NCBI GenBank assembly: GCA_011033025.1
Contig: WFMF01000349.1
Location: 62,001 to 126,000, forward strand
DNA length: 64,000 bases
Direction: 5' to 3'
DNA from: Beroe forskalii
Taxonomy: Eukaryota > Ctenophora > Nuda > Beroida > Beroidae
Part shown: positions 12,111-63,571 of the stretch, piece after piece
How positions within the stretch are numbered: position 1 is the stretch's first letter
How the letters are laid out: the number at the start of each line of letters is the position of its first letter
Program-made: the position numbers and the translations under genes
Notes under the pieces: model-generated
Seen by the model: the letters and a program-made list of their open reading frames with translations, nothing else
What the model was told of the DNA's origin: nothing
Databases searched by the model: none

Positions 12111-15100
12111 TCACCGGTTCCTTCCGTACAGGAACTTCAGTTGGAAAAGATACTTGACGTTCACCTGAAAGTGGCATTTTAATGGGAGGAAGACAGAGTG
12201 CATTGATGTAACAAAATCCAAATAACAATTGGGATGTCTATTTTTATCTACTAATAACTAATAGTCAGTTAGGTTTGTGAACTATGATAACTGTCATTTG
12301 ACGAATTACCTCTTGTGTTGGTGAAATGAATAACATTGAATTCACAGACACACATAAATAAACACAAACATACACCCATACAAACACACCCGTCACCCTA
12401 CCTGCGACACATCGTAGACAATGTACTCGTTGTAGAGGAGACTAGACTCTTCGGTATCAGGCTGCTCAGTCCCAGGTCCCAGAGGTACCACGCAGCCGTT
12501 AGGTAGCGTGTGGTAGGAAGATGGACCTGTCTTACCACACCCTGAGGTAATAACTAGGTGTTACTAAGTGTTACTACGTGTTACTAGGTGTTACCATGTG
12601 TTACTACGTGTTACTACGCAGCCGTTAGGTAGCGTGTGGTAGGAAGATGGGCCTGTCTTACCACACCCTGAGGTAGTTACTAGGTGTAACTAGGTGTTAC
12701 CATGTGTTACCATGTGTTACCACGCAGCCGTTAGGTACAGGTAGTGTGTGGTAGGAAGATGGACCTGTCTTACCACACCCTGAGGTAGTTACTAAGAGTT
12801 ACCATGTGTTACTATGTGTTACTAGGTGTTACTAGGTGTTACTAGGTGTTACTAGGTGTTACTATGTGTTACTATGTGTTACTATGTGTTACTAGGTGTT
12901 ACCACGCAGCCGTTAGGTAGTGTGTGGTAGGAAGATGGACCTGTTTTACCACACCCTGAGGTAGTTACTAGGTGTTACCATGTGTTACTAGGTGTTACTA
13001 GGTGTTACCATGTGTTACTAGGTGTTACCATGTGTTACCACGCAGCCGTTAGGTAGCGTGTGGTAGGAAGATGGACCTGTTTTACCACACCCTGAGGTAG
13101 TTACTATGTGTTACTAGGTGTTACTAGGTGTTACTATGTGTTACTAGGTGTTACCATAGGTGTTACTACGCAGCCGTTAGGTAGCATGTGGTAGGAAGAT
13201 GGACCTGTCTTACCACACCCTGAGTTAGTTACCATGTGTTACTAGGTGTTACTATGTGTTACTATGTGCTACTATGTGTTACTAGGTGTTACTAGGTGTT
13301 ACTAGGTGTAACTATGTGTTACTATGTGTTACTACGCAGCAGGTAGGTAGTGTGTGGTAGGAAGATTGACCTGTCTTACCACACCCTGAGGTAGTTACCA
13401 TGTGTTACTATGTGTTACTAGGTGTTACTATGTGTTACTAGGTGTTACTATGTGTTACTATGTGTTACTACGCAGCCGTTAGGTAGCGTGTGGTAGGAAG
13501 ATGGACCTGTTTTACCACACCCTGAAGTAGTTACTATGTGTTACTAGGTGTTACTATGTGTTACCATGTGTTACTATGTGTTACTAGGTGTTACTATGTG
13601 TTACTAGGTGTTACTATGCGTTACTATGTGTTACTAGGTGTTACTAGGTGTTACTATGTGTTACTAGGTGTTACTACGTGTTACCATGTGTAAGTTAATG
13701 TTACCATGTGTTACTACGCAGCCGTTAGGTAGAGTGTGGTAGGAAGATGGACCTGTCTTACCACACCCTGAGGTAGTTACTAGGTGTTACTACGTGTTAC
13801 TACACAGCCGTTAGGTAGAGTGTGGTAGGAAGAGGGACCTGTCTTACCACACCCTGAGAATTAATGAGTTTACACACAGCCCCCATTGCTCGACCTCTCA
13901 TAACTCACAGCTTCATAACATCAACTAATTACTCAACTTGTAGTTGGCAAGTTGGTGTAATGGCATCAAGTCTGGCTCGCGATCGAAAGATCCTGGGTTC
14001 GATTCACTGATATTACCTTTAGTGCTGTGTTTGCCCTTGGGAGGTTTGTTGATGTACTTAGCATCCAGCAACTCGTACATGTCTCCTAAAGCAACCTCGC
14101 AAAGCAACAGTAAGCCGGTAGGGCTGGATGGAGATGTGTAGCAGTAGTTAGCCGACTTGCTGACCTGGACAGGGTTGCTTGGTTACTGGCAGATAAACAG
14201 AAAGTTGCTATTTAGTTGTCAGATAGTTGCTAGGGGTGCTGCTAGGTAGTTGCTCTTATCAGAGATTGAGTTGCTACAAGATGTAGGGGTGCTGGTTAGA
14301 GGCAGCAATAATCGCACTTTAAACAAACTATAAATTACCATATCTGCGAAGTAAACTCCCTTCCCGAACATGTAACCAGTAACGGGGGCCTCTGGGGGAG
14401 CTATCCGCAGACCCTGGGACAGAATACCCGCGAAGTTGCTGATTCTGGAACCGTGCCAAAGCAACATTCGGTTGTGGAGGGAGGAGTAGGAGGAGGTGTG
14501 GAACTTGGCTGAATCAGAGGTGTATCTGCTGTATTCCCCCTGGAGAAGAAAACAATGGATTAGGAGGAACTAAGTTTTTAGTGATGGGATGAGGGAATAA
14601 TGGATGGTATTCCACTCAATTTCAACCAAGCGCACGAGAAATAGACGGGCAGGATGACGTCATTTTCATAGCTCAAAGTAGTGAGTTGCTAACCTTGAAC
14701 CGCCTATATTTCTCTTACGCTTCCTTTAGTGATGGGACGAGGGGTGGTATTATTATAGTTCATCATATAGAATGTAGATAGAGTCTGAAATAGCCGAATT
14801 TATGATAAGAAGAATGCTTTACCTGTCGCTCCACTTTGAAGATGTTCTCAATTTGCAGCTTGTAAGTGTTATGTGTATCCGCGTGCGTGCTTGACACATA
14901 CTTCTCTAGCAGGCTGAACTCCTGTTAAGTGTTGCTATAACAACAGTGTTGCTATAACAACAGTGTTGCTATGACAACAGGGATTGAGATAAGGTTGCTA
15001 TGACAACAGGGGTTGAGATAAGGACGCCATGACAACAGGGGTTGAGATAAGGTTGTCAGATCAACAGGGGTTGAGATAAGGTTGCTATAACAACAGGGGT

Positions 15101-18100
15101 TGAGATAAGGTTGCTATGACATCAGGGGTAGAGATAAAGTTGCTATGACAACAGGGGTTTAGGTAAGGTTGTTATGACAACAGGGGTTGAGATAAGGACG
15201 CCATGACAACATGGGTTGAGATCGGGGGAGTAGCCAGGGGTGAGGCGACACATGCGGCTGCCTTCCCTTTTTTGGACAGGTGATATGAAAATTTTGTTCA
15301 TTTTGATAAAATGAGAGCTTTGAGCCAACAAAATAAAACCTTAAACACGCCGCCCCCTTTTCAGAAATCTGGCTACGCCCCTGGTTGATATAAGGTTGTC
15401 AGAGCAACAGTTTCATGTAGATAATCAAACACTTAGACAACAAGTCCGCTCACCTCAGTGTCACGAGACAAGATGCTCATCTCACACTTCAACTTCAAGA
15501 AGTGGGTGTCAATGGGATCCTTGTCTTTGTCAGCAATATCTGAGGAATGAAACGTTTTATAACCTAGCATGACTGAGGTGTCGCCACCTCTGAGATCGTT
15601 GTCTGAAGTTTCCACAAAACCGCCATTTGTACGTGCGTGATACCGATTTAGCAGTATATCCAATTACGTACATGGCGCCGCACGATCGAAAATTTCAGAA
15701 TTATGCTCATTTCTCGAGATCGCAACACCTGCGTTGAGATGTTCATTGCATAGGAGGAAACACATATCATTTTCTCAATACCACGTAAGTGTAATTTGGT
15801 GATCCTAACTTTAACAATGTAAGTGTAACTAGTTATACGCCGCGCACGAGAAATAGGCGGATCAACGTCATGAATTCACTACATTAAGCTATGATAATGA
15901 CGTCAGCCTACCCGCCTATATTTCTCGTGCGCGGAGTTTAACAGACCTGTTTTAGTCATGCTGTAAGCTATCTCTAACTCTAACAAAGCTTCCAACATCT
16001 CAGTTTTGCTGTGAATTAGCTCCTTTGTCTCAAGAACGGGTGGTTTCTTCATTCCAAAGTCGTGCGGAATCAGCGTGAAGAATCTGGAAAACGCGTGTGC
16101 TTTAGAGGATGGAATATTGACTGATTGCTTTTTCAGACTACAGGACTAACTAAAGAACTAACAAGACTAACGTACATAACGATTGGTTAATGAAGTTTTA
16201 TTCTTTAAATTACCAAAGGAAAACATGCCAACTAACAGTTTTACAGTTTAGGGAGCAAGTTAAAACGTTCAATGATACGATAAAGTTTAAAATCAGAAGC
16301 TTTCGAAAATCATGTGATTATCATCGTCAGTTATACAATATACAGTGTTACAAGGCAACTATAGTCTTACCTTGTGGAAGCATCCAGGATTTGAATGTTA
16401 TTCCCCACAGGGTCCGCAATGTAGTCTTGCACTGCAGTCAGCACACTGAACGCTTCATTTATCTGCTTCCTGTATCAAATAGACCCATCATTCATCTGGC
16501 TATCTGCACCATTTCACCGTCAAATCAGAGCAATCTCCCCACTTTCAAATCCCACAATAGGCAAAACACACATTTTCTATCATATCACGAACCTGGACAG
16601 CTTTCCGAGCGGCATTTTGTTGAGGTCTATTTCGAACTGCAGTAGCGTATCCTTCATAGCGTCAACGTCAAATATCAAGTTAACCAGATCTTGTATTCCT
16701 GAGGGTTAACACTGGGTTAACAGTCTGTCAGTCTGTTCCACATTGGGGTTTTCAGCTTGCGGTAAATTTATCATCGAGATAAATATGAAGTTAATTTAAC
16801 GTGAAACTTGCCATAAAAATAAAGCAACTGGCCAACTGCTACATAGAACAGAAGTCTATGATTGTTAATTATTATTCACAACTTAATTATTATTCACAAC
16901 TTCAATTAATAAAACTTCGACCTGGCTCCAGCTTTATGATTTTACAAACTAAGAGTAAATCTGGCTCCAGCTTTATGATTTTACAAACTAAGAGTATTCC
17001 TGGCTCCAGCTTGGTGAGAGACCCAGGCTTCACCGACTCCGCCACTTCATCAGTTGGACCGTAGTCCACGTCAATACGATACATCTTCCCGGCCACTTTG
17101 GTGAAGGGCTCTCCCCACTCATTCCCTGACTTGTCTTCGTAGTGAGACCTGGAAAAGGGGATTACTGTGAAACAAAGGTGGAACCTGGAAAAGGGGGGGG
17201 GGGGACTCGAACAAGGGGGAATACTCAAAAGAAGGGGGGACTAAGACAAGCAGTTGTCAACAGAAGACTTGAAATTGGCGAGTATTTATTGAGTGCTTTA
17301 CATTTGAGAGTGTGAATATGTTCTTATTACGAAGAATAACTTCACACTGGCGAAATGGTAGTATAGGAACATGACTGATTTCAGCGTGAAATAGCGCCCA
17401 TTAGCCCCATGGGGGCTACGTGAGGGGCTAATGGGGGTTATTTTACGCTGAAACAGTCATGTTCCTATACTACCATTTCGCCCTTCGCACTCACATGAAC
17501 AGCTCTACCGCCCCATTGGGGGATTTGAAAGAGTCGAACGTAGTGCCTCCGATATCTGTTCCTATACGACCCCACGCTCTGAACAAGTCGTACTTGTGCT
17601 CTCCTCGCTTTAGCACTTGTAGTTTGTAGTATGAATTCTTGCCTGGGAATAGTAAGTAGTAGTGAAGCTTAGAAAGGATTCGAACTTCTGGGTGTCGGAC
17701 TTCAGTCTGTTGACGCCCGGAAGTTCGACAAGCAGTGAGAGTGTCTAACTTCTGGGTTGTCGAACTTCCGGGTGCCGAACTTCCGTCCCTGGCCCATTTG
17801 AGTCAGATTCACACCCCTAACAAGTACCATCATATTCTGATATTTCGGTGAGTCACCTTACCTTGCGCTATGTCCACGTGACCTAACGTTGCAGCGTACA
17901 CGACCCCGGCAAAATCTTTGTACACCTGAAACAACACACTCAGCACCAACCAGTCAAATAAAATGATAGACCACAGTCAAATACAGATAAACTTTACAAC
18001 ACTTCTTTTTACTATCAAATTTGAGGTACTGATGATGTCAGTGTTACGAAAGTACTCTACCTCAATATAAAGATTTAGCTTGTTGTTCCTAACAAATTCA

Positions 18101-18241
18101 ACGTTTTTGTCTGATCTCTTGGGAAATATTTTTCACAGATAAAGGAATAAGCAGCAGACACTAGACAGCTTTATGATGTTAAGAAATCAATGGGACACTG
18201 TATTTTCCAAATCCTGTGGACAGACAAAGGAACAGACAGCT

Positions 18242-18272
<31 letters not shown>

Positions 18273-21200
18273 AACCTGAACGTTAGGGCTGTTATGGAGA
18301 CCACTCTCTCAAATAAAGTGATAAAACGAATAAGATAAAGGAATAAGCAGCAGACAGCTTTACAAATTAATGGGTCCCTGTATTTTCCAAATCCTGTGGA
18401 CAGACAAAGGAACAGACAGCTACAGACAGCGATACAGACAGACAAACAGACAGACAAACCTGAACGTTAGGGCTGTTATGGAGACCACTCTCTCATAAAG
18501 TGATAAAACGAATAAGATAAAGGAATAAGCAGCAGACAGCTTTACAAATTAATGGGTCCCTGTATTTTCCAAATCCTGTGGACAGACAAAGAAACAGACA
18601 GCTACAGACAGCGATACAGACAAACAGACAGACAGACAAACCTGAACGTTAGGGTTGTTATGGAGACCACTCTCTGTGAAAACTTCAGCCCCATTCTGCA
18701 CAGTCACTTTGGCCCGTTTGTTGGGTTTACGGCCGCTCTTTTCATCTCTCTCATCATTAGCTGAGATAAGAACAAGAGGTAAGGTATACTACGTAACGTT
18801 TATCATGGCATATTTTATTTTGTTATCAGAGGAAAACGAAAATTATTTGAGCTATGAAATTATGCACACAATTCGTAAAATAGATGAACATTTTCGAAAA
18901 TCCATGGTCTGAAGCATATCCTTTTTGACATAGTCCCAGGCGCTCAATAACTGCTGAACTGATGCTATCCCAATTCCAGTGTTGAAACTTGTTGAATTAA
19001 GTGGTGAATGCTATCTTCAAGGACTCTCTCAAAGGTCAGGGCTGGTTTTTCCGTTGAATATCACCGTCGTCAATGCTAGCCGTAGCCAGGAACCTCTAGG
19101 AATAGCTCAGGGAGGCCATAGAGTTGAAAAGTTTTTACTCCACTTTGTCGTCAAAATCGCTTAAAATTATTCTTTTGGTCAAAATTGAGGTATGGGGTCA
19201 CTCCAGTGCTCCTGAGTTGTGATCAGGTTGGATTCTTGCTAGATTTTAGGTTTTTGCTGGAAAACTTCACTTCAAATTTGAGTGCTGATTTTGAGCCATT
19301 TGAGCTCCATAATTGAAATCATTAAGGAAAGTTAAGCTTTGGTCAAAACAACACCCCAAACCAGCATTGTTATGGGTTTCAATGGGTTACTCAGCATCCT
19401 TAGGCATTATATTTCATTATTCTTACTCCAGTTAGCTGCTTCCATCAACACAACCCATGAAAACTCAAACCATAAGTGATGCAATATTTCTAGTGTCTCA
19501 GCAAAGCTGACCACGCATCAACTCTGGCCTGCTCGTGGTACTCTGTTGACTTTTTAAGAACTTTTGCATATCTAGTGATTCTGGTGATGATTAGCACAAA
19601 ATATTCTCTAACATTCAAGTGAAAATTGCAAGTTTTCTGGATTCTGCTGCCAAAATAGTGAACTGCCTCTTTTGAAGCACTGTTCTCACTCTCTTCGAAT
19701 GATTTGATTAAATGAGAGTTTTCTTGCCCTTCCATAGGTTTGAAAATAGCCTATGGGCCTCAAGTTTGTTCAACATATCCCTAAGAGTCAAAATATGGTC
19801 TAGGTTTTCATTGGGGACGAACAAAATGTGTCGCCAGGGTCGTCTTACAACTATCAGGGAACATGGTAAAATAACCTCACTGAGAGCCTCTTTTTTCCTA
19901 CCTAAAATTAAAATCTCCACAACTACCAGACCATTTTGAAATTCATGAAATGAACTTTTGAACATCAAATGATCATCTATTAGCTCCATCAAGACGATAT
20001 CAGTCGACATCAAAACTAAAAGCATGTCTCTGCTACAGCTCTCTCAAATATTCCATAATAAACGAAACAGACGATATATGGGGGAGTTCATCTTACAACA
20101 TGATCTTTTAAAGTCATGGTGGCTCAAGTTCACTGTTTTGACTCAAAGACCTGGTTCGCCAATATTTGGTTTATCAGTTCAAGTAAAGTTTTATCAATAT
20201 CAGACCTCTCATCATTAGCGTTTTCTCTGATTTCTTTCATCGCAGAACGTCGCTTCTTGACGTAGTCGTCACCCTCAAAGCCCGAATAACACACCGTGGA
20301 GATGTCAGGCAACTTTCCCTCGAGTAAACCTGGAATTTTACAAACTTTAGGAGGTTTACTACGACACTAGACCTGGATTTCACAAGTTAGGAAGTTTAAT
20401 GCGACACTAGACCTGGATTTCACAAGTTAGGAAGTTTACTGTTTCGCTAGACCTGGATTTTACGAGTCAAGATTTTACTGTTTCGCTTGAGATTTAGAAC
20501 CCAAGAATTTACTGTCACAGTGCAGCTTAAATACTGACTGATAATGTTATCACTCGTTTGATTATTTATTATTATTATTCATGATAATGAAGCTCGCCCA
20601 GTGTAAGCTCAGTTTTTCAAAGCACACGAGCAAATAAAAACCTCGAGTTGGACTTGAAATGAAACACAAAAGTTATAGCTCTCACCTTTGATAAGCTTTT
20701 CAGCATCCACTATTGGAATCTCCACACTTGCAGCCCGTTGACTTTGCTCACTATCCACGTCATCCGTGATCAGAACGTTGCATTTAGCAGTGAACGTCTT
20801 ATTTACCTTTCCACCCAGTTTGGTGAGCAAAGGCTTGATTTCATGCTCCTTTCCGTCAATCACTGATCAGGGTTGGGTAATTGATACGATCTTAAACTGA
20901 GGTTTACTCGGTTCAAGGATTTTATTCAAGTCGATATCACATTGTCCTAACAATTACCATCCGTTTAAGAGAAATTACCAATCAATTCCAAGGGGCAGCA
21001 AAACACGTAATCTTCGAAGTGGGGTCGAGAATCTTTTAGTTCTGCAGAGCTTGGTTCAGCTTCCATGAAAAGTCTTGTTCCTGCAATAAATCGGGATAAT
21101 TTAATCAAGTTTTGCTTCTAAAACCCGATTATTTTCTGGCGCACACGAAACATTTCATCTGATCCATTCAATGATCGCTAGAGCGCGCGCGTTCGATTTA

Positions 21201-24200
21201 TTGATCACGTGATCAACTTTTTAGCTTACAAAGAATATTGTTATTGATGTTTGTCTTCGCGCGTTACAAATATCAAACAAATCTGTGGTACATTGGCAAC
21301 TTTAGCGCGCCAAAAAACCACAAGCTGTTGCTAATGTAAGGTCAGAGTAAACTGGTGTCAAGACAGTTTGCGTGAATAAAACGACTGGTTTTAGAATGGA
21401 ATGATGTCAAGGGAATATACCAGTAGTTAGTTAAAGCTTATCCAGGTTACAGGTATGAGAAATAAGAAATTACCAGTAGTAAGTTTGTCAAGGTCATAGG
21501 AAAAACAGTTTACCAGTAGTAAGTTTAAGCGTAGCAAGGTATTCAGACGACTCCTTCACTGAGTCAGGAATTACCCACAAAGTCCTAGCAGGTGCTGTCA
21601 GAGTGTTCGTGCATTTCGTGAACTCTGACACGTCGCCTTTACACACGTAGTTGTTATTGCCTGGGAGGGGTTTACATTGATTATTACCTTTTCTCTGGCT
21701 CTGGCTCCACTGAGTAACTGTAGTAAGGAAAATAATTAGTAATGAAGTCTGAATTCGTAAAATTATGAATACAGGATCCTTGAAAACTTATGAGAAGTTT
21801 AAATTTCATAATCTGTAATCGGCAGATGTTGAATTTGCAATCGGCGCCGACTATGTCTGATCAGCCCAATGCCCCAAAAATGATAACTTGTGATAACCCT
21901 CATTTATGTATTTTCTAAAAGTCGATTGGAGTGAAAAATCACAATGGTTCCAGTGCGATTACAGGGGTCAAGAGTAAAGTAATCTCCTCTGAATCAACTT
22001 ACCCAAGGAAAAGTAGTTATTGCCACAAACGCTGCAATCTTCGTCAAAACGACCAAAAGCGATTCCATCAGAGCACCTGTCCATCAACTGAGACATGGGG
22101 TAACAGATTAATAACTTCTCACTTTGGAATCAAGGAAGACAGAATGGGGCTTAGGCAGAGATAAGAACCAGATAAGAAACGGACGACAGATCTGTCGCTA
22201 GTTTTGTGGTAAGCAAAATGCTAAAGTTAAAGGAATCACCCTGATATCAGCCCATGTGTCGGGTGAACAAATAACAAAATTAAATTAACTATTCAACCTG
22301 ATATCCAGCCCATGGGTAGGGTAGCCATTCACTTCCAGCATTTCCCTCAGGTACTTAATTTCTACTTCTTTCAATGCCTCTCTGATTTCCATCAAGTAGC
22401 TGCTTTGTGCCTGAAAACAGGAATAATTTCTTATTCGAGAGCACTCGATTTGATGTGAAATTTTCACTCTTCTCTTATTCGCTCGGTGAAGTGATACCGA
22501 AACGATTCAGGCAACCACGTTCGTACTAATTAGTATGCAGCCTATTAATAATTAGTCTATTACTCCGCCCTATTGAATGTTAAATAAGGTCATTAATTTC
22601 ACCTTTAGTTTCTCCTCATGTTCAGACAGTGCTTTTCCAGCTGATTTTTTGGTTTTCCGTTTTCTCTTACTTCCTTTACCTTTTCCTGAAGTAATTGTCT
22701 TACACTGACAACATCGCTAAGACATAAGAATTCCTTATCCAAGTAGGCCATCAAACTTGATAGACGTCCACTATTTAAATAGTAAGTAGACGTCTATAAA
22801 GAGTTAGTAGACATTAGAAATCTAGAAAGTCCTTAGCTGAAATTATAAAATTACAATAGCAACATTCAAATAATTTACATCAGCTTACCAGTACCCAGAA
22901 GAAGAACCAATTGACTCCTATCATCCTCACGTAGTTTAGTGAAACCCTGAAGTAATGGAAAGTTTCTGTGGATACTTCAAACTTTAACTAGCAAATCACT
23001 AAAAAGCATCGATAAATATATTCCTATTTACTAATAGGATACACTGAAATCCGGCATATTTGTTGCCAACAATTTGCAGTATTTACCTGAAGTAAGTTTG
23101 CCGTCAGGTCAGCTAAATCACCCAACTCTCCCCTCCTATCAGCAAAACATTGGGGGTGGTGCCAAGCTTGCTTCTTTCCATTCTTAGCCCACTTTAGCTC
23201 ACTCCCCTCTGCATCCGCCAAGATTCCTGTGATATACATCTCATGAACAACCATTCAACAAAATATACCACCCCCCCCCCCATTTCTAAAAAACGACGAC
23301 AAAAAGTTCCAAAAGGTATCTCGAGGTATCGAAAAGCGTCTGAACGCGCCAAAAAGCGACAAAAAGCGTCAAAAATTTCAAACCGAAATGTCGCAATCCC
23401 CCTATAACAGAGAGGTAACTACCTTGCCAAGATAATCTTGTTGAGATAATAAAGTAATGTTAAGATGGTTGAGTAATGAGTAATCTGACCCCCTTGCGGG
23501 GGTCAGACAACGTCTGAGTCTAGGGTTGTGTGGAGAAACACCCTTTGTATATACCAACATCTGACACCATAGCTGTTCGTACTGAACGGAACCTCTCAGC
23601 TTCAGTTCCTTGTTTAACATGCCGTTCAGCAAGGACATCCACTAAGCTTGCCAGGCTAGGCCATATACGAACAACCATAGGGACAGAAGTTGGTTTTATA
23701 CCTTAAGAGTATTCCATAACCACCAGGACTTCGGGGGCGCGTTTGCTCGATGTACCAAAAAAATGAGTAATCTTGTAAGATTTGAGACAGTAAGAGTGTA
23801 AAATCCCAGACACTTACCAATTCTGACGGTATCTTTATCAATAGTTGTAAAGCAGCCCTTGCAAGTTGACCTGCTTGACTTGGCATATTCCACAAAGGCT
23901 TCTGCAGAAACAGATTCTTCTGAAAAACGTGAATTTGGGTGAGAATTCCAAAGCTTTTGATCATAATTTTCTTGTATCAGACCGGACCATTGTGTCAAAT
24001 GTTGAATTATACGAATTGTGTTTCTCAACACAAAGTATAAAACCAGATTATAACATTCAAACTTCAAGTTAAATGACGAATAAAACCTCCATTTTAGTCA
24101 CTGACCTGCATTAACACGGACAAGACCACCAACTTTCTCCTTTATTCTCGCCTGGTCTTCATATCTCAAACTACCAAATCCTTTCATGTCCCCAGTAGAC

Positions 24201-30418: not shown

Positions 30419-31180
30419 CCAGAGCAACTTGAAGGATCTCAGTTCGTGTTTGCAGGTAAAGCAATTTATTCAATTTCACAACTTTTTTTGATGAGTGTGC
30501 ACTTTACACTCAAGTAATTATTACTGAAATGATTGTTGCATGTCTAAATTGTGATTAGGAATTCTGATTGTCATTCAAGCAATGCTTCAGACATGCTTTA
30601 AGAAGGTTCCAATATTAGAAACTGAGGCATCTTCATGCACCCTAAAAAGTTTGCAATTCAACTTTAAGGCAGATGCATTTGGTGTTCTAACTCACTTACC
30701 ATGTTTGCAGGGGATGAGAAGAAGAAGCGATCCTTGAGTGACATCATGTTCTTTGGAATTGGCAGCAGTTACATGAGTGGGCTTTGTGCTGGTGGTCTAT
30801 GGGGTCTTGTTGAACACAAACGTACCTTTGATGAGAGTTCCAAAGTCCTGCGGAGAAATCACTGTCTCAACTCTGTAACAAAACGTGGAATATTTGTTGG
30901 CAATAGTGTTGCAGTCATAGCACTATTCTACACTGCCCTAACTGGTGGTATTGGTAAACTGAGAGATAAGGATGATGTTTTGAATGATGTAGGGGGTGGT
31001 GGACTTACTGGAGCTTTGTACAAGTGCACATCAGGAGTTCGTCATGGGGCTCTTGGACTTGCCATAGGTTCAGTCTGTGGATTTGCCCTAAATGCTGTCA
31101 ATGGAACTATCCAACAAGGATCCTCTTATACTGTGGACACTATCAGAGATACATATCAGGATTTGTTTGATAGGACTTGA
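30419..31180 (+). CDS. TIMM23: TIMM23-like inner-membrane translocase channel (5' end not found)
   Basis: Core subunit of the TIM23 complex, which imports presequence proteins across the mitochondrial inner membrane (family knowledge). Two exons: 30419-30455 (PEQLEGSQFVFAG, matching the region before the first helix in animal TIM23) and 30711-31180, joined in phase 1. The second exon holds the Tim17/22/23 domain with four hydrophobic segments and GTFG-like glycine patterns, including SYMSGLCAGGLWGLVE, GNSVAVIALFYTALTGGIGK and LTGALYKCTSGVRHGALGLA. The stop follows DLFDRT. An exon with the start Met and N-terminal intermembrane-space region must lie upstream and was not identified. Exon 1 end and intron end share TGTTTGCAG. 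Confidence 0.92.
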
Positions 31181-42826: not shown

Positions 42827-45800
42827 ATGAACCCATCCGACACTCCTTCTTCCTGGAAGCTTTCCCTCAACTCTTCCTGGGACATATCCCGGTCAGCAGG
42901 GACCTACAGCACGCTCATCATCATGTCCCTGGCGGCGGTGGTGGCTATTGCTGGCAACTTCATGGTGATTGTACTTTTCATGAGGATCAAGAGAATAGCA
43001 AGGCTAACGCCCCATGTGTGAGCATTTTACCGCCTTTTGATGTTTTTAATATTTATTGATATTGTCAGGCGGAGGAAGCAATTTTCAAGAAATTATTCAT
43101 ATTTCAATTTTGCAAAGGTCAACTCGTATCAGCCTTGTTAACACGGATTTTATTTTGCATCATATTATCTTCCCAATTTATCCCCTCCTAACACCCTCCT
43201 CTCTTCAGATTCCTCACCAACTTGGCTCTGTGTGACCTGATCCTGGGAATAAAACTACCTCTCTTTTTCCTTGTTACGCTGGGTTTCGGAGACGCCTGGA
43301 TATTCCAGGACCCTACAGCATGTCTAGTTGCAGGAATAGCTGACTCCCTGGCTTTCAGACTCGTCGTTGCCAGTAAGTTGTGTTATTAAGTGGTGTTATT
43401 AATTTAGGAAGGAAATTTAATGAAATTTAGACTTCCAGAGAATATTATGATTAAAATTTATGCAGCATGAGTTAGGTTGTTATTAATGCAAAATTCATAA
43501 AATTGGGCGATTATGAGAGCAAGTTATTTCAGTTGAGGTCAGAGGATGTATTTAGGACAAAAATTAAATCTAGAAGGTACCATTTTAAGTTGGCCATGCT
43601 TTCCTCGCAAAGTGTCGCATCAGAACTCTGACATTTATTTAATTTTGATTTTTGTACGTAGGTTTACACAGAAGGTACATGAGATTGAGAAAGCCATGAA
43701 ATTAAGGGAATATAATTTTAAGTCATTTTAATTTTATGAGAGTCATAAACGATCGAAATTCAAATAAGGCAGGGAGACGTGGAACAGTTGGAACACTCAA
43801 AAACTTTAGCTAGTTCTCAAGGGATTGATATTTAAACGACATAACCGATACGAGAGAGTTGTAATCTGAAGCTTTCGAAATTAATTTCTACTCTTTCTCA
43901 CGGGCAACGACGTGACATATCCTAGTGGCGATCAACTTTGACTACAACGTGGGTGCCCTTGGAAAAGAGAAAATTATAAGCTTGATTGACACAATTTCGC
44001 GCCTTCGGTGGTCGATTTTGTCACTCAACCAATAACAACTCTAACTGAGTGTCATTTTACCAGGTATGATAGCTGTGGCAGTGGACCGGTACTTGGCTGT
44101 GCTTCACGCTGTACGCTACTCCTCCATTATGCCTGAAAAACGGGCTTTCAAAGTCGTGTTCCTCATCTGGATCTACTGCATCGTCTGGGGACTGGTGAGT
44201 TTTATTGAGCAAATTCTACACTTTATTGAGAAAATCTAATCAATTTATTGACTATCTGATCTATCATGCGATTGAACCTTCTGAAATGGAGGCCCTCACC
44301 CGCTTTATTTCTGAATTCTTATCATAATCATGAAATCCTACATTACCTTACCCTATCTTTTCCCCTCACCAGATTCCAGTAGCTATAGCAGTGATCAACC
44401 AATCAACAAGCGTCTATACCTTCAGTAGGAGTTACAACATCTGTATCTTCGATCCAGAAACACCCCCGAAAGGAAACAACTTACTCTACAAGGTAAACCC
44501 TCGTAACTCAGTAGATCTCTTCTTGAACTTCTATAACACAGATATAATTTCCTTGTCAGTTTTACTTGTCAGTAGGCATCTAGCTGAACTTAGTGAACTT
44601 CTAGAGTTCTAGTTCCATAACATTAACACGTATGCTATTTCATTGTTAGCAGACGGCAGTATCCTAGTAGCCCGACACACTTATAATAGACGTCTATTAA
44701 GTGTGTCGGGATACTTGGATACTCCAGTAGACCTCTTGTGAACTTCTAGAGTTCCAGTACCATAACACGAACATTCCCTGTCAGGTCTACGTGTCAGTTG
44801 ACCTCTTGCTGAACTTTGTGGGACCCCTGACTGTCATGACAGTGTGCTATCTGAGGATCGCTATGAAAGTCCTTAAACCCAAGAGGTAACTTTTGTTCAA
44901 AATATCAAAATTCTGGTAACCATCCCACCCCAAACCATGACATGATATTGAATAATGGACACTCCTCACCACCCCACTCCTCACCACCCCACTCCTCAGT
45001 CCTCACCGCCCACTTCCTCACCATTTAAATTTCAACTCCTCACCATTCCACTTAACTCCCTATAATGGACACTCTTCACAGCCCCATTCCTAACCAACCT
45101 CTCTTCACCACTTATTAACCCCTACCTCCGCAGTATGGGTGACACGTTACGGAGAATCATGCGAAACACTTCCCGGAAGATCTCCAAATCCAACGCCCCG
45201 GGCATGTCCCCGAGCAGAACCACCTACAACCACCCCGAACTCGATAACGTAAGTAGTCATTACTCGCATTAGGGTAAATATAGGCGGTTGTGGCATTATG
45301 GTGACATCATCATTGCGGAAATGGTAAATTGCTTGCGTTGATATGCCTAAATTATATTCCTCGTGAGCTTATTATTTTGTTTTTCTTCAGGGGCTGGTCA
45401 ACCCGCCGTGGTTTGCAAGCCCCAGGGCGCGTATTTGGTGTCCCTAAAAAGGCTGGTTAAAAATCTTAAAATGCCGGTTAAAGTAAGTGCGATTAGGGTA
45501 GTTAAATTTAACCAGATACCTTATGGAGTTATGGATTTCTCACGATAAAATACCGTTAGCAGACTAATATATCAGAGCTATCATCTCTCAGACGACCAAA
45601 GGAGTGGGTATAATGATCGAAGGCTGCGAGTCAGACAGTAAGGAAGGATCAGACGACTACGTGGAGTTGCCGGCCATCACCAAGGTGGACAACTCAGTAT
45701 CTACTAACGTCTTCTGTCAGAGTAACGACAGCTGTAGTGGCCCCTACTGATGTATCTCCAGTCAGCAACTACTTGTAAGTAAAACTTTATAATTTATTAT

Positions 45801-48330
45801 TTTTTACAGCTTAACAAGAACTCCCAGGACAGTTTACTAATTACTTACAATGGGGTAAATGCCCAATTCAATGGCTTGCGATTTGATGCATCCAACGTCA
45901 CTCACAATCCGAGCAGAGTAATTCTTAGTATTTTAGAGCACACTTCTAGTTCCCGCATCAAGAAATCATAGTATTCGATAAATCGATAATTATAGAATCA
46001 AACCCTACGGTGGCTTTTAATGGCTGTGCACCAGAATCACTAATATGAGGTTTCTGAATATATCAGAATCAACGACAAAATACCAAAATCCGTAACATCC
46101 CTTCCTCCCCCAGGATCTATCAGAACGCATGTTCCTACTCCACTCCTCCCTACAACATCCCCTCGTCCCTCCCGGACAAGGTCCGGAGCCTGCCCTGCAG
46201 TCCTGTGAAGAAAGTAACCATCTCCTCCTCCACCACATCATCCCCTCAGACCTCGGACGCTGCTCCCCCTCCGAGCTGTGACAGAATTATGAGGAGTCTG
46301 CCTAACTCCCCCACTCAAACTCAGAAGATTGGAGGAGGTGGGATGGTGATCCCGACTAGTCCTCAACACTGGGTTCCCCTCCTCGAGCTGCTGCTGCCTC
46401 CAACCAGTCCACCCCAACCAGAGGGAGGTGTTATCAGTACCAGGGATCCAGATCAGCCAACTCTACTCCGACACACAAGGTAGCGTACTCTGACGTACTT
46501 CATGTCATGATATAGCTGCTAAGAACGCCCTCTGAAATCACCACATAACCACCATTAATTGAACGTGCGTGACACGGAACAGTATTACGTGTACGCACAT
46601 GGCTCGGAATGGTTCTCATTTCGAGAACTTGTGACAACTGTAAAATAGAGCAAACCCTTTAACTCAACCTTGGTTTTTGAAATACGGGTTTTATCTTAGT
46701 TCTTATATTTACTTAACTTAAATCTGATATTTCCAACAGGTCCTTCAGAAGAAGTGTACTATATCAAGTTCTGACATGAGCCATTTCCTCTATCGAACCA
46801 GATCGGCTTCCTCTGGCCTCAAAGAAAGTTAACCTCTATCCCCGGAACTGCAGGTAAACTAAGAGCGAAATCTAAATAGACCAATGATATTCTCTGATCA
46901 CCGTTCAGTATGATTTTATGAGCAATTCTAGTTAAGCAGAATTCTGAATATGCATAGCACCGTGAATTCTTGAAGATTGTTGATCAATACCAAATATCTA
47001 ATTTGTGATTTAACCTCTTATGAATTTGTCATTCACCCACGCTTCTCCTGTCAGCCGTTCTACTGTTGACTCAGAATACGCAGCAACGCTGAAGAGCAGT
47101 GCTAAGAGAATGTCAATAGCTTTCATGTCGCAACTCAAGAGGTTCTCTCATGCCTCAGCAGTCTTCAGCAAAATGACGAAGTGAGTTCCATTTTCAATAC
47201 TATCATCCGCCATTCAACTAGTCATCGTTTCATATCGAAAACATCTTCTTTATGAAGTTTCACAGAGTCATATTTAGGTTGAAAAGTTTCTGAATGATCT
47301 TTCATGTCTAACGATTTTTACCCCAGATACCAACAAAAGATAGCCAGAACGACTGTCATGGTGTACCTGTCTTTCTTTTTCTGCTTCATTCCCTTCATCT
47401 CAAGTCAGGTATGTGCAATTTCCTTAAGTCCTTAGATTGTGTGTATGTTATCTAAATCATGATAATGAAACTATCTACCTCAATGGACAAGTCATGAGAA
47501 AATGAATTAGTTTGGCAGAGAAGGGCACCCATAAGCATGACAGTTTCAACACATATTGTCGTGAATTAGATTAAACGGATTTACGGGTGTCCAGGAATTC
47601 ATCATTATTAATCCGCCCATGAATTGCTTCATTTCCACAAATACTCATGGCACTGGCTATAAATAACACTTTTATTTATAGCATCATTCTCCCAAAGCCC
47701 CACCCAGCTGCACGAGCTATGTTCTGCAATAAAGAACCATCTATTTTAAACTTTATGTCTTGATACCTAAACACCGTGTGCCATGAAGTGAACATCTTAG
47801 ATCATCTAATGCCATGGGTCAGTCTTAATTTAGCCTTAAATAGCTATTTTAATACCCCACGTCAAATCAGTAAATATTAATATATGCAAGGTCTACCCAC
47901 ATACTCCTGGGTAGATGGACAGTGCACACGTACCTAACTTAACTTCCCTTCAATGGGGCCGGGGAATGGTCTCAAGCATAGCGAATGGAAGAAGCTTATA
48001 CTTCCAATCAGCAATATAGTGCAATACTCTTATGATAGCTTTATATATCCAACTAACCAGCTATCTGTACCACATGTGACTAGCCCTAAGGGGCCCTATC
48101 ACCATATTATTATGATCGTTTAACTCAACTAACCAGCCATCTCTCCTCAGGTGATGCTCCTAACACAATCCTCCTCTCCATCCTCCACACCCCAATCTGA
48201 CAAAACCAACGTCTTCGTCTTCGTGAGTGTTTGCCTGGTCTACTTCAGTGCGTGCATCAACGTTATCATCTACGGGACCATGCACAGGAACATCAAGGCA
48301 ACCTTCAAGGGCATCTTCGGATCGCATTAG
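42827..48330 (+). CDS. Rhodopsin-class (class A) GPCR, orphan, 12 coding exons
   Basis: Seven-helix receptor. Exons: 42827-43017, 43209-43372, 44064-44194, 44373-44492, 44785-44885, 45134-45248, 45592-45774, 46114-46479, 46740-46853, 47055-47180, 47327-47408, 48151-48330; about 620 aa. TM1 has AIAGNFMVIVLF; TM2 NLALCDLILG; TM3 ends MIAVAVDRYLAVLHA with the DRY motif; TM5 NFVGPLTVMTVCYLRI; TM6 YLSFFFCFIPFISS (CFIP in place of CWxP); TM7 SACINVIIYGTMHRN (NVIIY in place of NPxxY). Cysteines for the TM3-ECL2 bridge are present (PTACLVAG, NICIFD). The third intracellular loop is very long, Ser/Pro-rich and spans exons 6-10. In that loop exons 7, 8 and 9 each need a small frame correction (near 45737, 46375 and 46816) for all junctions to agree. 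Ligand and subfamily are not assigned. Confidence 0.92.
44671..44710. repeat. 40-bp near-perfect palindrome in GPCR intron 4
   Basis: CCCGACACACTTA and TAAGTGTGTCGGG are the arms around ATAGACGTCTAT. It could extrude as a hairpin or be a minimal MITE. No second copy was seen in the window. Confidence 0.7.
46522..46640. mobile_element. Decayed MITE, AGGTGTCGCCAC family, copy 3
   Basis: Shares TTGAACGTGCGTGACACGG and TTACGTGTACGCACATGGC-type interior and TCTCATTTCGAGAACTTG end with 10481-10640 and 15575-15730. Lies in GPCR intron 8. Confidence 0.5.
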
Positions 48331-56078: not shown

Positions 56079-59000
56079 ATGACCACCTCCATGCAACACA
56101 CCCTCAGAAGACCTCAGAAGCTCCTTACAACCTCACTCCTCCTTCTCAGCCTCCTTCCCTCATCCTCTTCCTCACCAGCCCCAGAGTTGACATGTCCTGA
56201 GCAGTGTCAGTGTGAGGATTCCATAGTGAACTGTTCAGGGCAGGATCTGATTGTCATTCCTCAACACTTCCCAACTAACACAACTGTCATGTGAGTTATT
56301 GGTTTAGTTTTCATAGGAATATTCTACCATGAGACAAAGGTTCAATTGACACCATAGTTCCAGTTGGCACTTAATTCACTCTGACATCAGTTCATCTTGA
56401 AACCCCAGTTCATTTGACACCTTGACACCAGTTTTATGACCACTTTGACATTAAGCTTACTCAATGTGTGACAACTTTCCGCTCCGACAGCAATTGATAA
56501 AACGTTCTTCTTTCAGTGATCTGTCCCACAATCGATTCAAAGATGGGAATTGGCAGGACATTGACAGCCTCATAGCCTCTTTACCATCCCTATCTCTTCT
56601 GTGAGTAAATCAATGAATGGGTTTGAGTGGTTATTTCAGAGCAAAAAATCTTTGATCTGTTGACCACAAATTTTTCCAAGGGGCCGGTTAAAATAGTTTT
56701 AAAAATGATAAATTTTTTCCATAGCGCCTGTTAAAAAGACTGGTTTAAATTATAATAAAAGCCAGTAAGGTATATATTGAAAATTTTCCTTATAATTTTT
56801 ATTATTTTCAGAAAGTTGCAGAACAACATCTTCACATCCCTGCCGAAGCAAATTATAGACATTAAAATGTAAGTTGCTTGTCTATTGCCCTGTTTTTACA
56901 TAATATGTCATAGCAAATATTTATCGTAAAGAGATTTAAAAGCCACGAATTTGTTGAATGATTTTATTGATTTTTCTAATTTCATGCTAGGAATCATAAG
57001 ATAGTAAGCTACTTACATGATAAGCTACTTCGTAAGCAAGATGTTGATATCAATTTTCAAGCGATAGTTCAGTGAAAACAGCTTGAAAACTTGAATAATT
57101 AGAATTAGAAAAGCTTGCTATTTCGATTTCATGGACACATGGTGCAGTGCAACTTTACAGAGCACTGAACTTTGAAACAATGGATTAACTTTATTTCCAT
57201 GAATATACATTTTCAATAAAATCAATTTCATGAAAGATCAAATTTGAAAATATAAGGATCTCATGCCATTCTGTGACACTCTTACTGCAGTAGACAAAAT
57301 TTATTATGAATCAGCAAACTCTGTTGAAATTCTCTCACATGCCATTGATTTCAACGATTAAACCGTGTGTTTAAGAAGAAACCTACGCACAAGGAGGTGA
57401 TGAGCATCACACCCCACCCTAGTAAACATTTCTCATGGCAAAACATGACTCGTGAATTTATATAAACGATATAATTTGTAACCATCATAATTTGTAACCA
57501 TCATAATTTGTAAGCACAAAACATTCTTCTCCTTCTTTGCAGTGACTTATCAGAAAACCCTCTCCACTGCCCACTCATAAGTTATTTCACAAAACTCTCA
57601 TCTCTTCCTCATCTCCTCCTTGCAGTGATTTATCACAAAACTCTCTTCCCTGCAGTGACCTATCAGAATCCCTCTCCACTGCCCACCTTATAAGTTATTT
57701 CACAAAACTCTAATCTCTTCCTTGCAGTGACTTATCACAAAACTCTAATCTTTTCCTTGCAGTGACCTATCAGAGAACCCTCTCCACTGCCCATCTCATA
57801 AGTTAATTCACAAAACTCTCATCTCTTGCAGTGACCTATCAGAAAACCCTCTCCACTGCGACTGCTCCACGCTGGAACTACCGAGCTACCAGTTCCTCTT
57901 CAACGCAGAGGAAGTGAAGTGTGCCAGCACCTCAAGGATGGGACTTGACGATGTGTATCTTTTCAGTCTGAGTCGCAGTGAGCTACAGTGTGGTGAGTGA
58001 AGTATGAGGGCTGGATTAACAAATGATAAATATATTCATTATGCCAATCACATTTCAAGCCCAACACATCGCGTCATCGCCCTTGAGGGTCACTAACTCA
58101 GAAATAAATGCTTAAAAACAATTGAATTTTAATAAGCTAGGATTCATTGGAAATTTTAATGGGAATTGCCAAAATGTGCCCCCAAACAACCTTGCCTAAG
58201 AATCAGAACGGTATGTGTTACTAGATTTTTGGGCTCCATCCCCAACTCTCACCCACTTGACTATCCCTCAGATGACAGCGAACTGATGGTGCCAGCTGAA
58301 GTGACCCTGTACAAGAGCAACAACAGACAGGAGATATCGTGTTCCAAACCCAAACATGGTACAGTGCTCTGGTACAGATACGGAGATTTGCTGTTCAAGA
58401 CAGCTAGCGAGGACTGCTCACTCCCTATCAGGTTAGGAGATATCACTTAGCATAATGTACCCATGATATAAGGTCAGGCTCACTCTTGCGGTGGATTATA
58501 AATTCCATTCTCAAAAAAGTCAAATTTAATTTTTTAGGATCCGAAAAACATAGAGAACTAAAAACTCATGGGTTTTCCAGGTTCATGAACAGCAGAAAGA
58601 CAGGGCTGTACGAAGTGAGATATGAGACGCCATTCGACAACAAGACACTCTATGTCAAGGTCCTCCTAGAAGAAGGTAATAAGACACAACTCATGATAGT
58701 GATACCCACACACATTACTCCCTTATAGATAAGACTTTGGATTTACACTGTGTCAGTTGAGGCTGCACTCCACGGAACTCCAGCTGGTTGTTCGCACCAA
58801 AATATAAATACATCATGCTTCTCGCATGCTTCCGAAAATGAGGGATTTCAACCCTTCATCACCCATTGACACTTCATCCCTCAGAGAGCTACCTGCCAGT
58901 GATAGACGTCAGTAAAACAGTGGTGGAAGTCCCCATCAAAGGCACCTCCAAGCTAATCTGCAAGACCACGGGGAGTCCACCACCCACGGTGGAGTGGTTC

Positions 59001-61605
59001 TTCGAAGGGAAGAGTGTCACCAAAATTATAGGTGAGTGGTTGATATCTTGTGAGAAAGGAGAAAATGAAGGAGATTAAACGAGTCATGGGTCAATGGTCA
59101 TCAATAGGTCACTTCAAGCCGTAATAAATGATCATCTCATCACTTTCAAATTTTATAAAGTTCTAAAGTTTTGCGTGAAAGATATCCAGATAATATGATC
59201 CTGACTCAGAATCTCAGACCTACTTTTGTTCTTCTTTTCTTTAACAAAAGCGCGAAGGCAATTTTCATCGCTCCCTTCTGTGCTCGTGACCGTCAAAACC
59301 TTCGCGACTGTTTGAAAGCTTTAATGATAATGCTGTAGATTTTGTAATCTCGACTGATTGATCACTGATAAAGAAATCATACTCGGCATTCGAACGTGAA
59401 TCAATTTTAGCAACATCTTTTAAAGATAAAGGAAAAATAGCAATTGCTTTTGCGTTAACAAATTATAGAGGATGAAGAACAAAGATAACCTACGTATACT
59501 GAAAATATTGTGATGAAGCAATCACAAATCATGATTGAACATGCCCTTTTCCTCACACCATGCCCTTTTTCTCAGATGACGATCTCCTTCTCGTGGACCA
59601 ACGAACCGTCATCGTAACTGACGTAACCACCGAACGCCACTTCACCTGCCGAGCTTCTAACTTCGTCGGCTTCACCGAAGCAAACTTCGTAATCCGTCCA
59701 GTCGACGGTGTCCGGGGGGCGGTGTTTGAGTGGCTGGCGCCCCTTTCAGTGGCCCTGCTAGTTATCACTGGGATAGGGAGTGCAGCTTACTACTTCTACA
59801 GTAAACACAAGCTAGCTGTTCTCAAGGAGAGGTGTTCTAGTCCGGCTGTCAGTTCTACTGCCGGAACAGTGTTTGGTGAGTTCCATGATTCAGGCTTTCA
59901 AGTGATAAATTTTGTATATTACGAAAATGAAAATTGACCTTAAAAGCTTAAAGAAGAGTGAACCGGTGTTAAAAGTTATTTAAATGTGATAAGTATGCAT
60001 CCGAAGAAAGTGTTTAAAAACTGAAAAACTTCGTGTTTATAAAAACTATAATTTGCAGAGTTCTTTAAATTAGCAGGAGAGTTTAAATTTGCAGAAGAGT
60101 TGAAAAACTTCTTGCAAATCAAAAACAGTAAATTTGCAGAATTTTAATTTTCTGTTATTCAGAGAACAGTGAAGCATATCCCTCAACTATTGCTGAAGGA
60201 GACGGTTACAAGATGATCACTGTGTCCACTACCTCCCCGCCCCACCAGTTCATTTGCCCCATAACCAGGGACTGCATGGTGAGTCAACAAACTCTCTCAA
60301 ACATTTACACTTCAAACATTCAATCACTTGAACTTCTACAATTCTATAGGACAAGACTAAAATTCCATTCCGTACCAATTTCTTTGCAATGAAATGAAAT
60401 CTGTTATAATGGCACGATTTAAGGAATCCATTTGAAAAACAGAAAATGCTTTATAGAAAATCTACATTTCTTTTGAAATATATTTCCTTGTGGTTTCAGA
60501 GGAATCCTGTGGTGGCGAGTGACGGTTTTTCCTACGAAGAAAAAGCCATTTTAGCATGGTTCAAAAGAAATGGTACGAGTCCTATGACAAATGGAGAGAT
60601 CAATAAAAGGCTAATTCAGGTATGCATATTGTTACAGGACCTGGGAACCAATTTGCAACATTCCGAATGTTGTAAGAACGACTTTGATTGAAAGCAAACT
60701 ATTTTACATTCACGCATGAAAGCATTAGTTATTTTGGCTCTACTTCAATTAACACCACATTTCCCCAGAACCACAACCTGCGGACATTGATCTGTGACAT
60801 CATGGACAAGACCCCGGTATCTGACAGCTTCGTCAACGTGCACCACCTGACGCAAGTTAGCCCTCAACAACCCGCCTCCATCAGTAGCCAAACCCCCACC
60901 ATCACCTCTCTGAGCAGTAGCAGTACTCCTACTGCCAGGATAGCCCCCAACAACTCGTCATCAGATCAGGGCGCTTCTTCATCTTCAGGCTCCCGACCGT
61001 CACCATCTTCTAATTCTCATAGAACTTCCTCCTCGTCAGGCGTATCTTCGTCAAACTCTCCGAGACCTTCATCCTCATCTTCAGGAGCTCCGTCCTCCCC
61101 CACCTCATCTCATGGAGTAAACTCTCCCAGTCGGAGGGTAAGTCGGTGTACTCGGGCAAGGTCTCTGGCATCCACAGACAGACAAACTGCTTCCAGGAGC
61201 TCTCATCGAGCTTCTGGGAGGGGATCAAGGAGTCACGCTACTATCACTCCCTCATCGGATGTTCAGCCCACGGGTAGAGAGGTTCAGCCCATGGGTAGAG
61301 ATGGTGAGACTGTGTCAGTGGGGGATTTGAACACGGATGTTGCTGCTGAACTCTCGAATGTATCGATTACTGAGGATGCATCGATGTCCGATGATGTCAT
61401 TACGCCAAGATCAGCTGATGATGTCATTTTGACTAGAGATGATGTGATTTTAACCAGAGAAGATGTTGCTTCGGCAGACTTGACGAGAATTCTGTCTCAG
61501 GATGAACAAACTGTATCTTCTGGTATAGGATCATCAACTTCCTTAGACATTATGCCAACATTGGGACAAGATGTCATTGAGAGTGCTGTTAACGATTACT
61601 CGTGA
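56079..61605 (+). CDS. LRR-Ig transmembrane receptor with cytoplasmic U-box E3 ligase domain
   Basis: Eleven exons: 56079-56290, 56517-56600, 56812-56868, 57832-57992, 58272-58431, 58581-58675, 58885-59031, 59576-59875, 60163-60278, 60500-60619, 60769-61605. All phases agree; 762 aa. Order: signal peptide (about 1-32, LLLLSLLPSSSSS); LRR N-cap (CPEQCQCEDSIVNCSG, 39-54); two to three LRRs (IDLSHNRFKDG, LKLQNNIFTSLP); LRR C-cap (NPLHCDCSTLELP); Ig1 (EISCSKPKHGTVLWYR); Ig2 (LICKTTGSPPPTVEWFFEG, HFTCRASNF); one helix (about 357-379, APLSVALLVITGIGSAAYYF); U-box (about 432-500: FICPITRDCM, NPVVASDGFSYEEKAI, WFKRNGTSPMTN, LIQNHNLRTLI); then a long Ser-rich tail with acidic DDVILTR repeats. A U-box recruits E2 enzymes, so this should couple ligand binding to ubiquitination (inference). 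Intron 3 holds copies of the exon 4 acceptor. Confidence 0.93.
57533..57831. repeat. Exon 4 acceptor edge of the LRR-Ig-U-box gene in tandem copies
   Basis: The junction TTGCAG|TGACCTATCAGAAAACCCT with up to about 30 bp of exon recurs with changes at about 57541, 57627, 57655, 57727 and 57763, before the real acceptor at 57831/57832. Copies diverge from the exon after CTCTCCACTGC and run into CACAAAACTCTCATCTCTTC. Each keeps an AG acceptor and a pyrimidine tract. Confidence 0.9.
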
Positions 61606-62277: not shown

Positions 62278-62444
62278 TTTCGACCTTTTGAGGCGCGGCG
62301 TATTACGCCGCGCGTGGATACTTTTCAAGGTACGTGACAGTGCGCAAATTAATTTTCTATGCAAAACATAGTAAGGAACATTTGCGCGCTGCAAAAATAA
62401 CCCAAGCGCGGCGTAGTTATACGCCGCGCCTCAAAAGGTCGAAA
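62278..62444. mobile_element. Hairpin MITE with nested GC palindromes, 167 bp
   Basis: TTTCGACCTTTTGAGGCGCG at the left is matched by its exact complement at the right end. Just inside each arm is a second palindrome (GCGCGGCGTATTACGCCGCGC-like left, GCGCGGCGTAGTTATACGCCGCGC-like right). The interior is AT-rich and non-coding. Confidence 0.85.
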
Positions 62445-63571
62445 CACCACGGTCAGTGGTCACCGTGGTGAAATATTATGTACATTTACTTGTTATACAT
62501 CAATATTCATTGTTTACGAAAATTCACTTAAATAAGCTGGCGACTTTTTATGTGAATTTAATCAGTTAATCTAAACCCTTGGATATCCCCTTTCAAATAT
62601 ATAACCCTTGGACCCTTCCTTTGGATCATATACGTGATCAATTAACAGATGATCAGGATTTTCGGATGATCATATAACAATGCGTACTAAGCATCACATT
62701 AACCCATTCTTGAGATCACGCAAGTGCAGCAAAATGGTTTAAGCGTTAATAAATTTCCTACGAATTTCGATCCATAATATCACGACAGATTTATAATCAC
62801 AGAGATTATCTTATGAGAGTTAGCTCCTGATAATATTAATTCCGGAGGAAATGGCAGGAAATGGCAGGGAACGGCAGATACTGCTATGTGATCAGAGCAA
62901 CTTCATGAGTGCCATCTTTTGTTACAAAATGCGTTCTGGCATAACAGCTTTGGAGTGCGTTCCAAGAAATCCTTTCATCTGGATATCGGTGATACGAAAC
63001 TTGATAAGCCTTTGGTTCATCATCTGTTTTCAATTAATGAGTTGTTCATCATGACGTCATTATCATAGGATAACCTAGAGCGTTGATGAGGTTGCACCGC
63101 CTATTCTGCGCCCAGGATAAAAAGGATATCAGCAAATATAATAGTATACGCTCTGCAGATCAGATAACTAGCAGTCTTCACCTCACTGGTTAGTGACGAG
63201 CTCACCGAGCCTCACTAACATGGCTTAAATAGTCGGAAATGAGGCAAGGAGTGTCGAGTGCAGGTTACATGTCACGGATGAAAAAGTAGACCGCATGATA
63301 CCATAAATACCACCATTCTAAACCCTGAAAATGACGTCACTAACTCTCCGGCTATGTTTCCGGCTTGGTTTACCTTAGGTACATCACCTACTTCACAGCT
63401 TAGTCTGCCACGCGTTTCCACGCATTTACAAACTCGAGTGATTCTGCCTTTCTCTATCACAGTGCACTTAAACAGATATATCCGTTCCATTATAACATTA
63501 CTTTATTCACATATTATACTGCACGCATATATATTAGTTTAACATACCATTCAGTCTAACGTATTTCTGTG
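62445..63571. other. Intergenic, nothing recognised
   Basis: AT-rich with short frames only. A partial CCGCCTATTCTGCGCCC near 63090 may be a scrap of the GCGCACGAGAAATA MITE family. Confidence 0.4.

Follow-up and report, generated by a model that had tools for sequence, protein, structure and literature searches.

In animals, cell-surface receptors are usually coupled to ubiquitin ligases by adaptors or by the recruitment of ligases such as c-Cbl, Act1 and the TRAFs, and the transmembrane ligases of animals known to us use zinc RINGs. RNF43 and ZNRF3 carry a protease-associated ectodomain, RNF43 with a Ser-rich tail, Act1 (TRAF3IP2) carries a SEFIR domain, and Trk receptors are laid out with a short capped leucine-rich repeat (LRR) region, two immunoglobulin (Ig) domains, one helix and a catalytic cytoplasmic domain. 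Here we describe a gene of the ctenophore Beroe forskalii, found in a 64,000-nucleotide stretch of contig WFMF01000349.1 (assembly GCA_011033025.1, positions 62,001 to 126,000 of the forward strand; hereafter the window, with positions counted from its first letter), for which the anatomy LRR-Ig-Ig-transmembrane helix (TM)-U-box as one predicted protein is close to certain. In LRIG proteins the LRR is much longer and there are three Ig domains, where this window protein has a short LRR region at about amino acids (aa) 39–171, putative caps included, and two Ig-like domains.

RNF43 and ZNRF3 resemble the window protein in having an ectodomain, one helix and a cytoplasmic E3 domain, a transmembrane layout described in PMC3905715 (papers are cited here by PMC number), and RNF43 also has a long lysine desert. 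They differ in having their protease-associated ectodomain in the place of LRR-Ig and a zinc RING in the place of the U-box, and no homology is claimed. LRIG1 likewise combines LRR and Ig parts in a transmembrane protein and is coupled to an E3 ligase that acts on other receptors: it appears to bring in c-Cbl so that ErbB is degraded (PMC2813878). That E3 is recruited and not fused. Act1 is a U-box ligase working for a single-pass surface receptor in IL-17 signalling, with formation of K63 chains together with Ubc13/Uev1A (PMC6610456), but it is a soluble adaptor, separate from the receptor. Trk receptors come close in ectodomain layout but differ in having a tyrosine kinase at the place of the U-box. 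Their orthogroup has been reported as bilaterian-restricted (PMC7535936). Scanning the window protein with Pfam up to E = 1, we found no protease-associated, RING, SEFIR, death or kinase domain, nor the TIR domain by which a Toll-like receptor would be recognized. We give a probability of roughly 0.55 to the reading that this ctenophore product is an E3 ubiquitin ligase crossing the membrane once, turning extracellular contact into local ubiquitination and most likely removing neighbouring receptors.

The top match in protein searches was a hypothetical protein of Mnemiopsis leidyi (ACHWQZ_G015943, P0001 in our lists; 656 aa, E 4e-170), itself an unannotated gene-model prediction, and the features of the Beroe gene are given here together with their likeness to that protein.

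56079–61605, + strand: whole gene from start codon to stop, 11 exons, 762-aa LRR-Ig-Ig-TM-U-box protein; same order in the Mnemiopsis protein
56079–56290, + strand: exon 1, signal peptide (hydrophobic aa 15–27 by eye) and LRR N-terminal cap (CPEQCQC...C), the latter a sub-threshold LRRNT match
56517–56600, + strand: exon 2, leucine-rich repeat; 11/27 aligned aa identical to Mnemiopsis, with DLSHNR unchanged there
56812–56868, + strand: exon 3, leucine-rich repeat; 6/19 aa identical, the lowest conservation of all exons
57832–57992, + strand: exon 4, LRR C-terminal cap-like Cys motif (NPLHCDC...C...C); 24/54 aa identical
58272–58431, + strand: exon 5, first part of Ig-like domain 1, divergent; 25/53 aa identical
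58581–58675, + strand: exon 6, second part of Ig-like domain 1; 13/32 aa identical
58885–59031, + strand: exon 7, first part of Ig-like domain 2 (Pfam Ig_3 at aa 261–334)
59576–59875, + strand: exon 8, second part of Ig-like domain 2, transmembrane helix and start of the cytoplasmic linker; 60/99 aa identical
60163–60278, + strand: exon 9, cytoplasmic linker (including YKMI) running into the start of the U-box; 26/39 aa identical
60500–60619, + strand: exon 10, U-box core (Pfam U-box at aa 432–492); 38/40 aa identical
60769–61605, + strand: exon 11, end of the U-box and Ser-rich cytoplasmic tail with no Lys in aa 499–762

These coordinates and the eleven in-phase exons had been proposed by the initial annotation, which a model made from the letters of the window, and they were borne out: every intron was of the GT-AG type, and the joined exons gave 2289 bases encoding 762 aa with one stop only, at the end. 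When sites were ranked with a simple consensus score, nine of the ten splice donors were within the top 6% of the 266 GT sites at the locus, with the remaining donor at 15%, and all ten acceptors were within the top 13% of 345 AG sites. Intron 3 was seen to hold, at 57533–57821, five partial copies of the intron 3/exon 4 boundary, each including TGCAG and the beginning of the C-cap exon, and this tandem duplication could supply false or alternative acceptors.

The Mnemiopsis protein has all parts in the same order, from signal peptide through Ser-rich tail, differing in that the tail is shorter, with 48% identity over 72% of the query, a level that would fit two ctenophores not closely related. 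Identity was 54/132 in the LRR region, 38/85 and 41/90 in the two Ig domains, 19/24 in the helix, 32/51 in the linker, 59/66 in the U-box and 46/158 in the tail, thus peaking in the region across the exon 8/9 join (helix, linker and U-box). When the Mnemiopsis protein was searched against the window with tblastn, exons 4, 5, 7, 8, 9, 10 and 11 were returned at E 5e-8 to 2e-34, exon 6 at E 0.001 and exon 2 weakly at E 0.10, while exons 1 and 3 had no corresponding match at E 10; the top match outside the gene was at E 0.52. With these comparisons we could show that a receptor-like ectodomain, a helix and a U-box sit in one conserved, predicted open reading frame. That TM and U-box belong to one protein is supported by the order of parts in Mnemiopsis, by the peak of identity across the join, and by exon 9 carrying both linker and the start of the U-box. 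We also considered that two adjacent genes had been misjoined, with exon 8 closing a receptor gene and exons 9–11 forming a U-box gene of their own. The gene model is known from genomic sequence, and the frame of exon 8 continues for about 20 codons into the following intron, so that one can conceive of a receptor isoform with a short tail; a soluble U-box isoform could begin at M423 in exon 9. Exon 9, however, holds linker and U-box start together with no Met in its open frame ahead of M423; the 17 residues preceding M423 are identical to Mnemiopsis at 10 positions, as are 15 of the 24 residues in the linker part of exon 8, and the Mnemiopsis protein runs unbroken across the junction, making such a misjoining most improbable. 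A gene-fusion artefact is likewise unlikely, in view of the Mnemiopsis protein and of conservation at the exon 8/9 join.

The U-box itself was recognized by Pfam (PF04564) at aa 432–492 with 38.2 bits against a cut-off of 21.4, and with 41.8 bits in the Mnemiopsis protein. The region scored as a U-box both in this hidden Markov model comparison and in its fold, being RING-like without zinc ligands, so that the domain proposed earlier stands; its extent to aa 505 does not, the core being at about aa 433–498. Two structure models were made, both of the Mnemiopsis protein and not of the spliced protein of the window. The first, from a 10-row alignment, had a mean predicted local distance difference test (pLDDT) score of 46, with the N-cap and Ig domain 2 mainly good and the U-box poor; the second, from 25 rows, had a mean pLDDT of 52, with the U-box at about 97 and N-cap/LRR at about 90, and with poor Ig, membrane and tail parts. 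Judged by the sequence, a linker of 52 residues places the U-box just beneath the membrane. This conserved linker has the sequence YKMI, which in Mnemiopsis reads YKML; it is a motif of the YxxPhi type, and such motifs have an endocytic meaning. We found it improbable that the protein is a pseudo-ligase, in which the U-box fold would be kept as a docking module with E2 function lost. What speaks for it is R441, which in an alignment made by eye seems to occupy the site of the CHIP Phe that contacts the E2; the very strong conservation of exon 10 (38/40) argues against it, as do the CPI and SPMT elements, which recur in many other U-boxes, for instance in WD-repeat/SAM and plant kinase proteins. 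Searching for phage relatives of the U-box (tblastn with 68 aa against 50,697 phage records) gave none at 1e-5, and NCBIfam had no match for the Mnemiopsis protein.

As to the ectodomain, the signal peptide was judged by eye, without a predictor, from its hydrophobic residues, and the LRR, also by eye, is short with about two to three repeats. The initial annotation had given the LRR both caps. In the window protein neither passes Pfam, LRRNT reaching 18.2 bits at aa 39–57 (cut-off 25.8) and LRRCT having no match, the latter in agreement with the report that the LRRCT Pfam domain was undetected in three ctenophores (PMC11797021). N-cap and LRR are nevertheless backed by a PDB profile search and by the prediction of this part of the Mnemiopsis protein at pLDDT about 80–95, with the Nogo receptor and SALM3 as structural matches. 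The evidence for the C-cap is the Cys motif at aa 127–171, of which Cys 127, 129, 148 and 171 are all kept in Mnemiopsis. The two Ig-like domains proposed earlier fared differently: the second was called by Pfam in the window protein (Ig_3 with 38.2 bits at a cut-off of 30, I-set with 26.7 bits at a cut-off of 23.7), whereas the first is divergent and was called in the Mnemiopsis protein only, which has two stretches each for I-set and Ig_3. Cys 195 and 220 of the first domain (184 and 209 in Mnemiopsis, at equal spacing) differ from the usual Ig pair, and the domain seems to lack the usual second Cys. Statements on the Ig fold refer to the first model of the Mnemiopsis protein, which was matched, for Ig-like domain 2, to Ig domains of neurofascin, RPTP-sigma and LRIG1. 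A single membrane helix follows, with the top 19-residue hydropathy window at aa 354–372 and with conservation in Mnemiopsis, as had been expected from the initial annotation.

With structural and profile matches of the ectodomain being adhesion LRR-Ig proteins, including LINGO, AMIGO-1, LRRC4 and SALM3, the protein could be an adhesion or synapse-organizing molecule whose U-box would merely limit its own surface level by self-ubiquitination, and the four juxtamembrane lysines that lie near the U-box in sequence agree with this. We nonetheless regard that explanation as unlikely, because the U-box is far more conserved than either the LRR region or the Ig domains, suggesting a function beyond self-control, and because the tail is free of lysine, which argues for avoidance of self-ubiquitination. 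That tail is long and Ser-rich, as had been noted from the start, with 66 Ser among the 257 residues of aa 506–762. The absence of lysine after aa 498 leaves a stretch of 264 residues, about a third of the protein, such as was reached in 9 of 20000 shuffles of the lysine positions; the corresponding stretch in Mnemiopsis has 143 residues and was reached in 564 of 20000. Proteins of the ubiquitin system often contain long disordered stretches free of lysine, which can stop stray self-ubiquitination, and the RNF43 lysine desert is listed with 324 residues, RNF43 being entered there as nuclear (PMC10169902).

According to the transmembrane ligase reading, the LRR-Ig-Ig ectodomain would engage a ligand or other binding partner on the cell surface, and the U-box, to judge from its fold, would dock a UBE2D- or UBE2N-type E2. 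Ubiquitin would then be passed to membrane proteins gathered by the ectodomain, perhaps also to the juxtamembrane lysines of the protein itself, whereupon the tagged proteins might be endocytosed or used as a signalling platform, with the lysine-free, Ser-rich tail avoiding self-tagging and possibly offering phosphorylation or docking sites. The protein would thus work in the manner of RNF43/ZNRF3, or as LRIG1 would if c-Cbl were part of it, as an adaptor-free device. These two, the nearest parallels in function, both lower receptors, and we take removal of neighbouring receptors to be the likeliest output, although this direction of output is less certain than the anatomy. The parallels go only so far: ectodomain dimerization was argued not to be central to RNF43 ligase activity (PMC3905715), and c-Cbl-independent functions of Lrig1 were noted (PMC2813878).

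Control of ubiquitination by an extracellular cue, in adhesion or innate recognition, as the initial annotation had it, is a reasonable hypothesis, with turnover of neighbouring receptors appearing, from the RNF43/ZNRF3 and LRIG1 parallels, at least as likely as a signalling pathway. As such a pathway we considered a one-component signalling receptor in which clustering by ligand would join the U-boxes, and non-degradative chains (e.g. K63) would recruit kinases in an Act1-like manner, perhaps in innate recognition. We regard this as the chief rival, possible but less likely, as the TIR, SEFIR, death and kinase domains are missing in the Pfam scan and the gene was found once only in its own genome, while many recognition receptors have diversified, unlike a single-copy gene. 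Furthermore, a paper on Mnemiopsis immune genes, which reports no bona fide Toll-like receptors, has neither ‘U-box’ nor ‘ubiquitin’ in its main text (PMC11797021).

Searches of the Beroe genome covered an assembly of 216 Mb in 1134 contigs. Using aa 1–498 as query, with 19 candidates scored, we obtained 11 matches, these being nine exons of the present gene, without exons 3 and 11, and two U-box exons elsewhere; since only its own exons and those two were returned, the gene looks single-copy. A U-box profile found 10 places in the genome, this gene, with its U-box split by introns, not among them, and an LRRNT profile found two equal-scoring places elsewhere, again without this gene. The two LRRNT matches (L020 on contig C314 and L021 on C384) had 28.1 bits each, and two of the U-box matches (L002 on C436 and L003 on C177) had 72.9 and 72.7 bits; from such equal-scoring pairs on different contigs, the assembly may keep some loci twice. 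An intron position shared by this U-box and two other U-box exons of the genome (L004 and L006) was considered as a sign of exon shuffling; the L004 acceptor lies near, not at, the same codon.

Three protein searches each scored the 7990 to 7993 candidates with the most shared words, in a database that may lack other ctenophore proteomes. The matches listed besides the Mnemiopsis protein (14, 10 and 11) covered single parts of the window protein, and none of them paired a U-box with Ig or LRR, the Pfam domain lists being incomplete for four WD-repeat proteins among them. The next U-box matches listed were unnamed environmental proteins (P0003 at 53%, P0004 at 52% and P0016 at 51%), followed by WDSUB1 of Phallusia (49%) and by WD-repeat and plant and algal kinase U-box proteins at about 47–67%; these other U-box proteins differ from the window protein in having no Ig or LRR among the Pfam domains shown for them. 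No description of an LRR-Ig-TM-U-box protein was found in the literature, judged by titles and the beginnings of abstracts. The initial claim that no such protein was known is thereby not contradicted, the sole other case among the matches listed being the unannotated Mnemiopsis model. Among those matches the predicted architecture was found in ctenophores only, while transmembrane E3 ligases and LRR-Ig receptors are each already known as kinds. We would tentatively go further and propose, at less than even odds, a ctenophore class of receptor ubiquitin ligases in which the cue directly switches the U-box on with no adaptor, and which, built on a Trk-like LRR-Ig-Ig ectodomain, either arose in ctenophores or was lost in other lineages. 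A conserved fusion of receptor and U-box in ctenophores would be a third route from receptor to ubiquitin ligase, by which a surface cue may, with no adaptor, have neighbouring proteins marked for removal or for signalling, and it allows the clean question of whether clustering of the ectodomain controls the activity of the ligase.

Just downstream of the gene, at about 62278–62445, two inverted arms (..CGACCTTTTGAGGCGCGGCGTA..) were seen by eye, each with an inner palindrome, which looks like a small inverted-repeat element of the miniature inverted-repeat transposable element (MITE) kind. Elsewhere in the window, the reverse strand holds a long open frame at 4611–6902 for an organic anion transporter (OATP; 327.5 bits), including a short tandem repeat that codes for SPLPN units, and, within 14219–24097, a PARP catalytic exon (93.6 bits) with a zf-PARP-like exon upstream on the same strand (35.3 bits, below the cut-off of 39.3), perhaps forming one PARP1-like gene. 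The forward strand has a Tim17/22/23 family protein in a single open frame at 30668–31180 (79.3 bits) and, at 45600–48330, exons that by eye resemble the end of a rhodopsin-type G protein-coupled receptor. A 10-base AGGTGTTACT repeat underlies a large minisatellite at 12486–13858, whose units are as long as some hundred bases.

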